Source of the DNA: Pannonibacter phragmitetus DSM 14782
GTDB lineage: Bacteria > Pseudomonadota > Alphaproteobacteria > Rhizobiales > Stappiaceae
Assembly: GCF_000382365.1 (NCBI RefSeq)
Contig: NZ_KB908233.1
Location: 1 to 64,000, forward strand
Direction: 5' to 3'
DNA length: 64,000 nucleotides
Position numbers and translations under genes: made by a program. Numbering within the stretch: position 1 is the first letter of the stretch; every line of letters starts with the position of its first letter. This document shows, piece by piece, positions 54,312-62,803 of this stretch. Below the pieces are notes generated by a model. That model had not been told where the DNA came from. It saw only the letters and a program-made list of their open reading frames with translations, and did no database searches.

Positions 54312-54423
54312 GGCAGGGCTCAATCCAAGGTTCTGAGATGCTGACGCATCACGCCTTGGAAATGCTCAGGCGCCACACGGGCTAATCCCGGAAACAGCCG
54401 GTGCCTTTGCCACACGAACAGCG

Positions 54424-60063: not shown

Positions 60064-60534
60064 TCAGTTGTGCTCAATGCTCCGGCTCATGAACAGGCTG
60101 TAGGGATTGTCCTCATAGGGCCCGAAAGGCCCGCAGGGCGCATAACCGAAAGCCTTGTACATGCGCACCGCCTCCACATTGAGTTCGCCGGTTTCCAGAT
60201 AAAGCTGCCGGACACCGCGCTGGTGGGCCAGTTCCTCCAGCTTTTCCATCAGCGCCCGCCCGGCCCCCATGCCGCGTGCGGCCGGATCAACGAAAATGCG
60301 CTTCAGTTCGCCGCTGCCTTCGTCGAACCACTTCACCGCTCCGCAGCCAATCGCCTCACCATCCGCCCTGCGCACAACGATGAAATCCACGTCAGCTTGC
60401 ATCAGATCCTCAAGCGGCGAGCCAAAATTACCCTCCGGCGGATAAAGGCTGTCCGCATAGGCATCCGACTGAGCCAGAAGCTCCAGAACTTCGGGCTGGT
60501 CAGGTGTCTCGATGGCGATGCGCAGCGGTGTCAT
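60064..60534 (-). CDS. GNAT-family N-acetyltransferase
   Basis: A 156-residue single GNAT domain: IGCGAVKWFDEGSGELKRIF (about 64-83), the acetyl-CoA loop in VDPAARGMGAGRALMEKLEE (about 84-103), then LYLETGELNVEAVRMYKAFG and the YAPCGPFGPYEDNPYS end seen in a group of uncharacterised GNATs. ATG 60534 begins the domain; the open frame continues upstream only because it runs into the repeat cluster. It lies 66 bp upstream of dihydropyrimidinase on the same strand. Substrate unknown. Confidence 0.85.
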   Translation of the reverse strand: MTPLRIAIETPDQPEVLELLAQSDAYADSLYPPEGNFGSPLEDLMQADVDFIVVRRADGEAIGCGAVKWFDEGSGELKRIFVDPAARGMGAGRALMEKLEELAHQRGVRQLYLETGELNVEAVRMYKAFGYAPCGPFGPYEDNPYSLFMSRSIEHN

Positions 60535-60588
60535 GCGGTGCTTTCTGTGGTTCATGGTTCGTGGTTCGTGGTTCGCTCTCACTCCATG

Positions 60589-60723
60589 CCGTCCCGGCCT
60601 TGTGCCGGGACCTGTTATGCGGAGTGAGGCCTGTGTCACCGGATTCTTCTGTCTTCTTTCACCACCGGATCAACGTCCTATGCGGCACCTTCCTTACAGG
60701 TCCCGGCACAAGGCCGGGACGGC
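60589..60723. repeat. Repeat pair 1: type B (60589-60637) and inverted type A (60688-60723), no gene inside
   Basis: The left unit reads GTCCCGGCCTTGTGCCGGGA followed by CCTGTTATGCGGAGTGAGG. The right unit, inverted, reads from the minus strand GTCCCGGCCTTGTGCCGGGA then CCTGTAAGGAAGG. Both share the GTCCCGGC/GCCGGGAC stem. About 50 bp of unrelated DNA lies between. It looks like an empty version of the pair that surrounds the GIY-YIG gene. Confidence 0.8.
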
Positions 60724-60809
60724 GTGTGGGGGTGGGGCATGAGCGAAATTTCCCGATTCCGTACAAAGTGTCCCCCGACCCACGCCGTGCGTGTTCCTCT
60801 GTCTTCCAA

Positions 60810-60862
60810 CCTCACTCCGCATCGTCCCGGCCTTGTGCCGGGACCTGTTATGCGGAGTGAGG
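60810..60862. repeat. Type B repeat with nested palindromes, downstream end of the GIY-YIG gene
   Basis: Two palindromes are nested. The outer arms CCTCACTCCGCA and TGCGGAGTGAGG are perfect over 12 bp. Inside is the stem GTCCCGGC-CTTGT-GCCGGGAC. This is the most complete B copy. The GIY-YIG stop lies 40 bp to the right. Confidence 0.85.
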
Positions 60863-60901
60863 CCTGCGTTGTTTCTGCATTCCACATCATGCGTGGCCGC
60901 T

Positions 60902-61189
60902 TCAGTAAGGGATCTGGTCCGACACATCCCACCAGCCGGGATTGTGTTCGGTGATCAGATTTTCCTTCCAGATCCGTGGCCATCGTTTCAGCCTTTTCTC
61001 ACGGTGCAGCGCTTCGATCACGGTTTCATGCCGTTCAAAATAGACGAGAGTCTTGATGTTATACCGCCGCGTATGCGCCACTACAGTTCCCGCCCGGTGC
61101 TGTTCCAGTCTCTGTCTCAAATCCCGAGCCGACCCGATGTAGATCGCTCCATGGGGCTGGTTGGCGAGAATGTAGACGAAATGGCTCAG
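60902..61189 (-). CDS. GIY-YIG nuclease-superfamily protein with apparent CTG start
   Basis: A 95-residue protein of the small GIY-YIG (UPF0213/YhbQ-like) group. It opens with SHFVYILANQPHGAIYIG, giving the two-strand VYI...IYIG signature. Next come SARDLRQRLEQH with the conserved arginine, VYFERHETVIEALHREKRLK with the metal-site glutamate helix, and RWPRIWKENLI...NPGWWDV. No ATG, GTG or TTG lies before the first strand. AAGGGAGG sits 6 bases before a CTG at 61189, where homologs have Met. The Shine-Dalgarno lies in the flanking type-A repeat. Function is unknown; it may be tied to the repeats around it. Confidence 0.75.
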   Translation of the reverse strand: MSHFVYILANQPHGAIYIGSARDLRQRLEQHRAGTVVAHTRRYNIKTLVYFERHETVIEALHREKRLKRWPRIWKENLITEHNPGWWDVSDQIPY

Positions 61190-61195
61190 TTCCAG

Positions 61196-61232
61196 CCTCC
61201 CTTACAGGTCCCGGCACAGGGCCGGGACGGCG
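61196..61232. repeat. Type A repeat, upstream end of the GIY-YIG gene
   Basis: Read on the minus strand: GTCCCGGCCCTGTGCCGGGA, then CCTGTAAGGGAGG, which runs into the first codons of the GIY-YIG gene. The purine-rich end is the gene's ribosome-binding site. The other two A copies have CTGTAAGGAAGG at the same place. Confidence 0.8.
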
Positions 61233-61348
61233 TGTGGGGTTGGCATTTGCGCGCAGTTTGCATCGCCACCTGACCTGTAGACTTCAAATTCAAGAACCAT
61301 TCGGCCACCGAGCCTTTTGACCCTCTAAACCTTAAACCCCACTCCGCG
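61233..61348. other. Gap between repeat pairs 2 and 3
   Basis: About 115 bp with no gene or recognised signal. It separates the A end of the GIY-YIG pair from the next B repeat. Confidence 0.5.
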
Positions 61349-61474
61349 CCGTCCCGGCCTTGCGCCGGGACCCGTTATTTGAAGTGAGGCCTGCGTTACC
61401 ATGTTGTATTCCGTTCAGCTGCCGTATCGAATGCCGTGCCTTCCTTACAGGTCCCGGCACGGGGCCGGGACGGC
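61342..61474. repeat. Repeat pair 3: type B (61342-61394) and inverted type A (61441-61474), no gene inside
   Basis: The B unit reads CTCCGCGCCGTCCCGGCCTT and later GAAGTGAGGCCTGCGTT. The A unit, inverted, reads GTCCCGGCCCCGTGCCGGGA then CCTGTAAGGAAGG. The layout and spacing match pair 1. About 45 bp of unrelated sequence lies inside. Confidence 0.8.
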
Positions 61475-61483
61475 GCGAGAGGA

Positions 61484-61512
61484 AGGGGTGCGTCCGGGAT
61501 GACGATGGAGGG
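61484..61512 (-). repeat. Half-copy of the family C repeat
   Basis: Read on the minus strand this is CCTCCATCGTCATCCCGGAC followed by GCACCCC, almost the same as the outer arm of the inverted repeat at 41086. No second arm is seen nearby, so it is a solitary half element beside repeat pair 3. Confidence 0.65.
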
Positions 61513-61552
61513 GAGCGGGGCGGTGCCGTTGCAGGGCGGAGATTGCGTTCTC

Positions 61553-62803
61553 TCACCCCACCACTTCCGCCGTCTCCAGCACCGCGTGCAGCAGAACATC
61601 ACAGCCCGCGCCCGCCCATTCCTTGGAAATCTCCTCCGCCTCGTTGTGCGAAAGGCCGCCGACACAGGGGCACATGATCATGGTGGCGGGGGCAACCTTG
61701 GCGGCCCAGCAGGCGTCGTGGCCGGCGCCCGAAATGATGTTCATGTGGCTGTAGCCGAGCCGTTCGGCGGCGGAGCGCACGCTGGAGACGAGTTTCGGGT
61801 CGAAGGTCACCGGATCGAAATGGCCGACCGCCTCCACCGAACAGCCGACGCCGAGCGCCTCGCAGATCGTGGCCGCTTCCGCTTCGATGCGGGCGCGCAT
61901 GGCGGTGAGTTTGGCAAGGTCGGGTGTGCGGATATCGACGGTGAAGACCACCTGACCGGGCAGCACGTTGCGGGAGTTGGGCGAGAAGAACACCTGACCG
62001 ACGCCGCCAACCGCACCCGGCTGATGGTCCATGGCAACGCTCTGGACCATCTCCAGAATGCGTGACATCGCAAGACCGGCATTGACGCGCAGGTTCATCG
62101 GCGTGGAGCCGGTGTGCGCCTCGCGGCCCGTCAGGGTGAATTCCAGCCACCACAGGCCCTGGCAATGGGTGACGACGCCAATGTCCTTGCCTTCGGCTTC
62201 AAGGATCGGGCCCTGTTCGATGTGCAGCTCGAAATAGGCGTGCATCTTGCGCGCGCCCACCTCTTCTTCGCCCACCCAGCCGATGCGCTTCAGCTCATCG
62301 CCATAGGTCTTGCCCTCGGGATCCTTGCGGCCATAGGCGTAGTCAAGGCTGTGCACCCCGGCAAAGACGCCGGAGGCGAGCATGGCGGGGGCAAAGCGGG
62401 CGCCTTCCTCGTTGGCCCAGTTGGTGACGGTGATGGGATGCTTCGTCTTGATGCCCAGATCATTCAGCGTGCGCACCAGCTCCAGCCCGGCCAGAACGCC
62501 CAGCACGCCATCATATTTGCCGCCGGTCGGCTGGGTGTCGAGATGCGAGCCCACATAGACGGGCAGGGCGTCCGGATCGGTGCCTGGCCGGGTCATGAAC
62601 ATGGTGCCCATCTTGTCGGCGCCCATGGTCAGCCCTGCGTCCTCGCACCAGGACTGGAACAGCCTGCGCCCCTCGGCATCGGCATCCGTCAGCGTCTGGC
62701 GGTTGTTGCCGCCCGCAATGCCCGGACCGATCTTGGCCATGTCCATCAGGCTGTCCCACAGCCGGTCCGGGTTGATCTTCAGGTTCTGTCCGAGTGCTGT
62801 CAT
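61553..62803 (-). CDS. Zn-dependent amidohydrolase, N-carbamoyl-beta-alanine / allantoate type
   Basis: A 416-residue M20-like hydrolase. Metal-site motifs are VGSHLDTQPTGGKYDGVLG (about 84-102), TNWANEEGARF (about 126-136), ELHIEQGPILE (about 192-202) and, near the C-terminus, ISGAGHDACWAA and GGLSHNEAEEIS. The family covers beta-ureidopropionase, allantoate amidohydrolase and L-N-carbamoylases. Next to dihydropyrimidinase the most likely role is cutting N-carbamoyl-beta-alanine to beta-alanine, CO2 and ammonia. It is on the same strand but cut off from hydA by the repeat cluster. Confidence 0.9.
   Translation of the reverse strand: MTALGQNLKINPDRLWDSLMDMAKIGPGIAGGNNRQTLTDADAEGRRLFQSWCEDAGLTMGADKMGTMFMTRPGTDPDALPVYVGSHLDTQPTGGKYDGVLGVLAGLELVRTLNDLGIKTKHPITVTNWANEEGARFAPAMLASGVFAGVHSLDYAYGRKDPEGKTYGDELKRIGWVGEEEVGARKMHAYFELHIEQGPILEAEGKDIGVVTHCQGLWWLEFTLTGREAHTGSTPMNLRVNAGLAMSRILEMVQSVAMDHQPGAVGGVGQVFFSPNSRNVLPGQVVFTVDIRTPDLAKLTAMRARIEAEAATICEALGVGCSVEAVGHFDPVTFDPKLVSSVRSAAERLGYSHMNIISGAGHDACWAAKVAPATMIMCPCVGGLSHNEAEEISKEWAGAGCDVLLHAVLETAEVVG

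Follow-up and report, generated by a model that had tools for sequence, protein, structure and literature searches.

Known REP families and stand-alone GIY-YIG nucleases

In the available text of a survey of bacterial REPs, these palindromes are described as mostly intergenic, with GTAG-REPs having RAYT partners, whereas CGTC-REPs "apparently lack a dedicated transposase" (Di Nocera et al., 2013; PMC3733652). The term "GIY" is absent from this text, which on partners treats transposase genes only, and likewise from further papers on "CGTC-tagged palindromic" repeats whose text was searched; no report of a link between GIY-YIG proteins and palindromic repeats was found in the open-licence PMC literature, bioRxiv lying outside the scope of the search. 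Stand-alone bacterial GIY-YIG members have been placed in the Slx1 group with predicted repair functions, and in the available text of that study the Slx1-like/UPF0213 proteins are treated as DNA-repair enzymes, the terms "palindrom" and "intergenic" being absent from it (Dunin-Horkawicz et al., 2006; PMC1564403). Slx1-type enzymes cut branched DNA, according to the same text and to PDB titles (PMC1564403).

The locus analysed here resembles the REP/REPIN-RAYT systems, as these are generally understood, in having an enzyme gene that is flanked by palindromes and mostly stays at its locus, gene-less pairs that are dispersed, and a separate enzyme type for each type of repeat. It differs from them in that the enzyme is a GIY-YIG rather than an HUH protein and the tag is CGTC rather than GTAG, so that a different chemistry is expected.

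The hairpin cluster and its repeats

The window, i.e., the whole 64-kb stretch of DNA from Pannonibacter phragmitetus DSM 14782 that was analysed, contains six perfect hairpins at 60590–61472, arranged as three convergent pairs of which the middle one (pair 2) holds a 95-codon GIY-YIG gene (Table 1), as the earlier note had described. All six start with CGTC and have the common form CGTCCCGGC-NNNNN-GCCGGGAC, with an 8-bp stem (GTCCCGGC/GCCGGGAC) and a 5-nt loop (6/6), and in each pair the CGTC ends point outward and the tails inward. The core pattern, with at most 2 mismatches, has 6 matches in the window compared with a shuffle mean of 0.10, and 6 matches were reached in 0 of 100 shuffles; these shuffles and the control windows described below ruled out chance or a purely local curiosity. 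Pair 1 is able to form one long hairpin in the computed fold (MFE −45.2, z −7.9), as is pair 3 (MFE −38.7, z −4.8), and no known RNA family was found at the gathering threshold in 60400–61600. The neighbours of the cluster are what we take to be a GNAT-like gene on one side and hyuC on the other.

Table 1. Features of the cluster and its flank in the window (hairpin coordinates count the C of CGTC).
Feature	Position	Strand	Remarks
REP hairpin B1	60590..60611	+	CGTC end outward; tail CTGTTATGCGGAGTGAGG runs to 60629
REP hairpin A1	60700..60721	-	tail CTGTAAGGAAGG faces B1
REP hairpin B2	60823..60844	+	at 3' side of GIY-YIG gene
Stand-alone GIY-YIG nuclease, Slx1/UPF0213-like, 95 codons	60902..61189	-	start CTG 61189-61187, stop 60904-60902
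REP hairpin A2	61208..61229	-	5' of GIY-YIG gene; tail CTGTAAGGGAGG
REP hairpin B3	61350..61371	+	
REP hairpin A3	61451..61472	-	
Flanking gene hyuC (amidohydrolase-like, presumed name)	61553..62803	-	outside module; anchor for comparing relatives

The spacing between the hairpins is 88 bp in pair 1, 363 bp in pair 2, and 79 bp in pair 3; the 45–50 bp previously given for the DNA enclosed by pairs 1 and 3 falls short of these gaps and fits once the shared tails are not counted. The B tails read CTGTTATGCGGAGTGAGG in two copies and CCGTTATTTGAAGTGAGG in the third, and the A tails have CTGTAAGG(A/G)AGG in common within the cluster. Among the 35 REP units of the host genome with a tail read, the GAGTGAGG/AAGTGAGG tail occurs only in the three B copies of the cluster, and the usual tail of window-type REPs is CCTGTNAGG or near it. 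Since the B tail is confined to the cluster among the units read, the three pairs seem to be a single pair repeated in tandem. The division into B and A repeat types therefore stands inside the cluster, where the tails are distinct, but is a local one; similarly, pairs 1 and 3, once proposed to be gene-less derivatives, do share their tails with pair 2, but only locally, and so appear to be tandem duplicates of a single pair. A dispersed element of ~108 bp (about 2207–2314 of L399, on G000:C5) was also noticed; G000 and G002 carry dozens of copies of it, and G001, G003, and G004 carry some. One partial copy lies in the window at 54325–54383, and the detector finds no hairpin in this element.

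In the 4.78-Mb host genome the window REP core, with at most 3 mismatches, occurs at 59 places, compared with 2 for the reversed control pattern. Many of these places form pairs with starts about 87–157 bp apart and with stems GTCCC and GCCCC, gene-less REP pairs are common, and GTAG is absent from the hairpin ends of both the window hairpins and the own-genome units read. The window REPs are like the CGTC-REP superfamily, as far as the available text describes it, in their CGTC end, 8-bp stem, 5-nt loop, and alphaproteobacterial host, and also in that superfamily members are mostly inverted dimers, with heterodimers of slightly different stems; the CGTC (or TGTC, CCTC) end, the loop of 4–5 nt, and the inverted dimers by which the superfamily is defined are all present here (Di Nocera et al., 2013; PMC3733652). 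In the same text, however, the superfamily tag is unpaired and its 8–9 bp stem nearly always starts with AT, whereas the window stem GTCCCGGC pairs GTC and is without AT, and the short superfamily tail mostly fits CCA, whereas that of the window subfamily is CCTGTNAGG (PMC3733652). The window subfamily thus departs in stem start and tail and may, from its sequence, be filed as CGTC-REP-like. CCA does occur at the end of some other REP types found here, for instance GGGGATCCAATCCA. The earlier claim of a repeat system of an undescribed kind has to be given up for the repeats, which by resemblance to the superfamily in the available text (PMC3733652) seem to be of a known kind; the apparent novelty lies in the partner enzyme.

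The GIY-YIG gene and protein

The window frame matches PF01541 (E 2.4e-14) and has no ATG, GTG, or TTG start, and its CTG codon aligns with the starts of relatives; among the nine nearest relatives the aligned start is CTG in two (G028 and G039) and ATG, GTG, or TTG in seven. Three genomes, which belong to two genera, therefore have an apparent CTG start at this aligned position (window 61187–61189, loci L096 and L100). The tail of hairpin A2, CTGTAAGGGAGG, resembles a ribosome-binding site, and may act as one in the place where such a site is expected. In alignments, the family-invariant Y, Y, R, H, E, and N are all kept in the window protein, and of these we take Y, Y, R, and E to be catalytic. 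The invariant Asn (N82 in A1) precedes P and W and may or may not match the C-terminal Asn named in PMC1564403.

The AlphaFold model of the protein has a pLDDT of 91, and in a Foldseek search with this model rank 1 was 1zg2 (E 1.7e-4), rank 2 was UvrC, rank 3 was 1ywl, and ranks 4–10 were Slx1 chains (E 0.017–0.058); these E-values are modest, falling below 0.001 for 1zg2 only, and the sequence match to 1zg2 is 2.3e-10. The protein is thus like the Slx1-like/UPF0213 proteins (1zg2, 1ywl) in its minimal stand-alone domain, its sequence, and its fold. It has the catalytic domain in common with GIY-YIG homing endonucleases, but its 95 codons encode the domain alone, without an added DNA-binding domain, intron, or intein, the gene lying between two others, and the NCBIfam group I intron endonuclease model gave 27.8 bits, not reaching its cut-off of 56. 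An anti-phage defence gene was considered as an identity and rejected, a weak homing-endonuclease model alone being matched (E 0.0006). Existing annotations of such genes read "GIY-YIG nuclease family protein" or "excinuclease ABC subunit C", or are missing.

Short GIY-YIG genes beside tagged hairpins in other bacteria

The link between GIY-YIG genes and palindromes claimed in the earlier note is systematic. With one fixed detector, which looks for a CGTC- or TGTC-tagged hairpin within 500 bp of a short Slx1/UPF0213-like GIY-YIG gene, such a hairpin was detected for 104 of the 151 matches in 73 genomes of the own family (the L210 frame being counted twice), with hairpins on both sides in 59. 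The corresponding counts are 55/84 in the named genomes, which have five Stappiaceae loci in common with the family set, 20/30 in the class-wide sample, which excludes the own-genome locus L372, and 27/32 in other classes of the phylum (27 of 36 matching genomes), with both sides in 19; L294 and L396 are double in these smaller sets. Hairpin density in the other-class set is 3.7 per kb near the gene compared with 0.23 per kb beyond 500 bp. The same detector, applied to controls in the own family, was positive for ParE genes in 1/30 and for Y1/RAYT genes in 1/15, where distances start at the matched stretch rather than at the gene ends, and 5 of 20 Y1 loci were dropped as too short. When untagged palindromes are also counted, the GIY-YIG figures are 122/151, 67/84, 26/30, and 30/32 (family, named, class, and other classes) and the control figures 9/30 for ParE and 13/15 for Y1, the latter because Y1 genes have palindromes of their own. 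For example, RAYT-like genes of the family (L155, L158, and L161) are flanked on either side by the palindromes ACCTCCACC..GGTGGAGGT or close variants of them.

At least one short GIY-YIG gene of this type is present in 78 of the 87 family genomes. The family loci were taken from a first set of 60 regions, mostly the highest-scoring among the matches listed, and 80 more that comprise most of the other matches listed. Around the 64 genes of the first 60 regions, CGTC/TGTC hairpins occur within 250 bp at 2.5 per kb on the 5' side and 3.4 per kb on the 3' side, and farther out at 0.03–0.25 per kb (0.5–4 kb) and 0.06–0.07 per kb (4–10 kb), a density 40–50 times greater within 250 bp of the gene than at 4–10 kb. 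A tagged hairpin lies within 500 bp of 50 of these 64 genes and on both sides of 32, and palindromes that have a similar partner no more than 2 kb away are about 80- to 120-fold enriched near GIY-YIG genes. In a comparison of flanking repeats that is blind to palindromes, inverted repeats with a score of at least 16 flank 31/64 genes and 0/1462 control windows (4 control windows at score 14), and direct repeats flank 45/64 genes and 14/1462 control windows. The nearest hairpins are oriented with CGTC out and tails in for 45 of 66 scorable pairs, against 25% expected, these being the 66 of 235 matches with an unambiguous nearest hairpin within 150 bp on each side; the upstream REP mostly ends 20–40 bp ahead of the domain start (50/118). 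From these counts the association of such genes with tagged hairpins is real, practically beyond doubt.

The association extends to species that are named CGTC-positive in the survey text (PMC3733652): in A. lipoferum, S. meliloti, N. aromaticivorans, and N. gonorrhoeae the gene was observed here among CGTC-REPs. Positive loci were also obtained from sequences labelled as MAGs of Planctomycetes, Omnitrophota, Uhrbacteria, Ignavibacteria, and Marinimicrobia, labels that may hide contamination. No CGTC hairpin was detectable within 500 bp in 47 of the 151 family-set members, and with the same detector 0/6 Mesorhizobium and 0/3 Caulobacter(aceae) loci of the named-genome set were positive. Ten plasmid-collection loci picked out of 38 records included two without a CGTC hairpin and one, from Spirosoma, that is doubtful. 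A relative without CGTC hairpins, on Planktothrix agardhii plasmid p1 (L502, 4992–5276), has an MmeI-type restriction enzyme gene on one side and DISARM drmA on the other, a neighbourhood of the defence-island kind. On Azospirillum lipoferum 4B plasmid p3 (L498, 4989–5282), the GIY-YIG gene with its CGTC-REPs splits sufB/sufC in an otherwise contiguous suf cluster. Tandem GIY-YIG gene pairs, with REPs between and around them and starts about 540–730 bp apart, are present at L109, L111, L223, and L240 (G070, G065, G072, and G040), as if the whole REP-gene-REP unit had been duplicated.

Specificity of GIY-YIG clades for REP types

The host genome has four PF01541 genes, one uvrC-like (709-codon frame) and three short, and each of the three short genes adjoins palindromes of a different type. 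The gene on C13 has the palindrome ATCCTCGGG-CTTGT-CCCGAGGAT at both sides, and that on C1 has ATGCCATGA-CTTGA-TCATGGCAT as a pair, downstream only; the REPs at both carry the CGTC tag and begin CGTC-AT. More widely, the clades of the protein tree carry their own REP types, with exceptions: CGTCCCGGC in the window clade, ATCCCCGACTTGATCGGGGAT in clade "RQRGT", ATCCCTGCGAAGGCAGGGAT in "LGGT", ATCCTCGGG in "SDKPRG", ATGCCATGG in "KNGTL", and the long-loop type ATCCCGGA in "AWVYI", whose REPs are missed by the perfect-stem scan because their stems are imperfect and their loops long. The expectation that different GIY-YIG clades would go with different palindromes was thus borne out, also at unrelated loci. 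REPs were compared among 120 of the 151 family matches, those with a hairpin. Between different genomes and non-syntenic loci, the REP is shared in 92% of comparisons at 80% protein identity or more (n=51), 41% at 70–80% (n=265), 12% at 60–70% (n=741), 3% at 50–60% (n=3736), 4% at 40–50%, and 7% at 20–40%. Sisters in the same genome share it in 0% at 60–70% (n=6), 2% at 50–60% (n=41), 0% at 40–50% (n=28), and 15% at 20–40% (n=13), and a single genome can contain members of several clades, each of them next to a REP of its own type. The REP is nearer to that of the closest relative elsewhere than to those of same-genome sisters at 49 of 68 loci, with the opposite at 18 and a tie at one. The global Mantel value, 0.129, is small yet exceeds all 500 permutations (maximum 0.124).

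REP abundance follows the clade as well. The median number of window REP copies is 19.5 in the 10 window-clade genomes and 0 in the 77 others (p=5e-6, relatedness ignored), and within one genus it is 19 with the clade (n=9) and 2 without (n=36; p=6e-4, relatedness again ignored). Of the 77 genomes that lack the window clade, 29 have at least one copy of the pattern, the most being 23 in G001. In G039, which has the window clade, the strict pattern finds 0 copies, because the flanking REPs there are TGTC-tagged and missed by it.

The hyuC-side locus in relatives

Thirty of the 57 matching genomes were read for the hyuC-side comparison. The window clade lies beside hyuC in G000, G028, G039, G040, and G064, and by coordinates also in G033, and occupies this same place in two genera; another clade with its own REP lies there in G002, G003, G031, G037, G078, and G084. 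Without the gene, the place holds a REP pair only in G001, a single REP in G004, and nothing in several genomes. By strict criteria a REP is present in 7 of the 11 genomes that have the gene and in 4 of the 19 that lack it (p=0.027), and by eye, including imperfect stems, in 11/11 and about 8/19, respectively. Homologues at the same locus but bare of repeats, which the earlier note had named as evidence against the system, were therefore not what this place revealed, since repeats accompany the gene in 7/11 by the strict count and in all 11 by eye. The hyuC-side space is a recurrent home of the gene, and the gene is therefore considered mostly resident at its locus. RAYT genes are likewise mostly resident.

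Two differences in length between relatives coincide exactly with REP boundaries. Beside hyuC, the difference between G003 and G004 amounts to 441 bp and spans precisely the distance between two successive REP starts, with REP-gene-inverted REP-REP in G003 and one REP in G004. Similarly, at the C1 gene a REP pair in G000 corresponds to one REP in G002, a REP-exact difference of 127 bp. As read from the sequences, both would fit excision or insertion by the enzyme, and ordinary repeat recombination too. At the C13 locus, REPs are present in both G000 and G001, and a clean empty site was not found in that comparison. The gene-less pair on C5 was uninformative as a source of an empty site, the G002 match ending before the pair, and G001:C23 was rejected as an empty copy of the window locus, having other flanks and being a separate array of REP pairs.

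A candidate partner enzyme and competing explanations

The cluster is probably a CGTC-type REP system with a minimal Slx1-like GIY-YIG nuclease as its partner enzyme, and it is likely that this enzyme acts on its REPs; that it actively mobilises them we would put at about even chances or slightly better. A RAYT as the enzyme for the window REPs was ruled out, no Y1/RAYT gene (PF01797) being found in the 5 genomes of the own genus (0/5; 14/87 in the own family), and to this extent the earlier proposal of a GIY-YIG protein in the place of the RAYT holds. By analogy, the GIY-YIG nuclease may be the missing partner of CGTC-REPs, in the role that RAYT has for GTAG-REPs. The enzyme would recognise the CGTC end together with either the single hairpin or, for a REP pair, its cruciform or long-hairpin form, and may nick the REP hairpin at that end, as Slx1-type enzymes nick branched DNA; host replication and repair could then copy or delete REP units. 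The gene would keep to a few conserved places and its REPs would scatter as gene-less singles and pairs. Such an enzyme would be a counterpart of the RAYT (Y1) protein, but a hydrolytic one, without a covalent tyrosine intermediate.

A selfish gene could give a similar picture, if a homing-like nuclease landed harmlessly in existing REPs that spread by other means. GIY-YIG is a classic homing domain, gene-less REP pairs are common, G004 has one REP beside hyuC where G003 has REP-gene-inverted REP-REP, and in A. lipoferum the gene and its REPs sit between sufB and sufC. We nevertheless regard this explanation as unlikely, since the window clade keeps its hyuC-side position across two genera and so hops little, the protein is without an extra DNA-binding domain, and clade-specific pairing and REP abundance are better explained by REPs that depend on the enzyme. 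A house-keeping nuclease that resolves REP hairpins or cruciforms, or that is autoregulated via the REPs, without spreading them, is less probable still, even though the fold is Slx1/UPF0213-like, REP pairs are able to fold into long hairpins, and REPs directly 5' and 3' of the gene could act on its mRNA; a general resolvase needs no REP-type-specific clade, and several clades occur in one genome, each with its own REP. Passive co-occurrence, in which REPs and orphan genes both gather in long intergenic regions, would agree with the mostly intergenic position of REPs in the available survey text (PMC3733652) and with the genomes that have REPs beside hyuC without the gene. It appears highly improbable, however, given the ParE (1/30) and Y1 (1/15) controls in the same family, the inverted flanks in 0/1462 control windows at score 16 (4 at score 14), the CGTC-out orientation of 45/66 pairs, and the clade specificity.

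Implications for CGTC-REPs and GIY-YIG genes

Because this type of enzyme accompanies this type of repeat in many bacteria, it seems to act on a class of small repeats that is itself widespread and had no known enzyme. In its broadest form, which is advanced tentatively and with a little less than even confidence, the proposal is that stand-alone Slx1-like GIY-YIG nucleases may be dedicated, type-specific mobilisers of the CGTC-REP superfamily across many phyla, the neisserial CGTC-REPs included, and would constitute a second, HUH-independent system based on hydrolytic hairpin nicking. CGTC-REPs are abundant in Alphaproteobacteria and have been on record since 2013, in the text available, as being without a dedicated enzyme (PMC3733652); a candidate is now available, and it adjoins its repeats in culturable species too. 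If the enzyme moves REPs, small-repeat mobility would have arisen twice, with two unrelated nucleases, and a large and poorly annotated group of GIY-YIG genes would gain a function.
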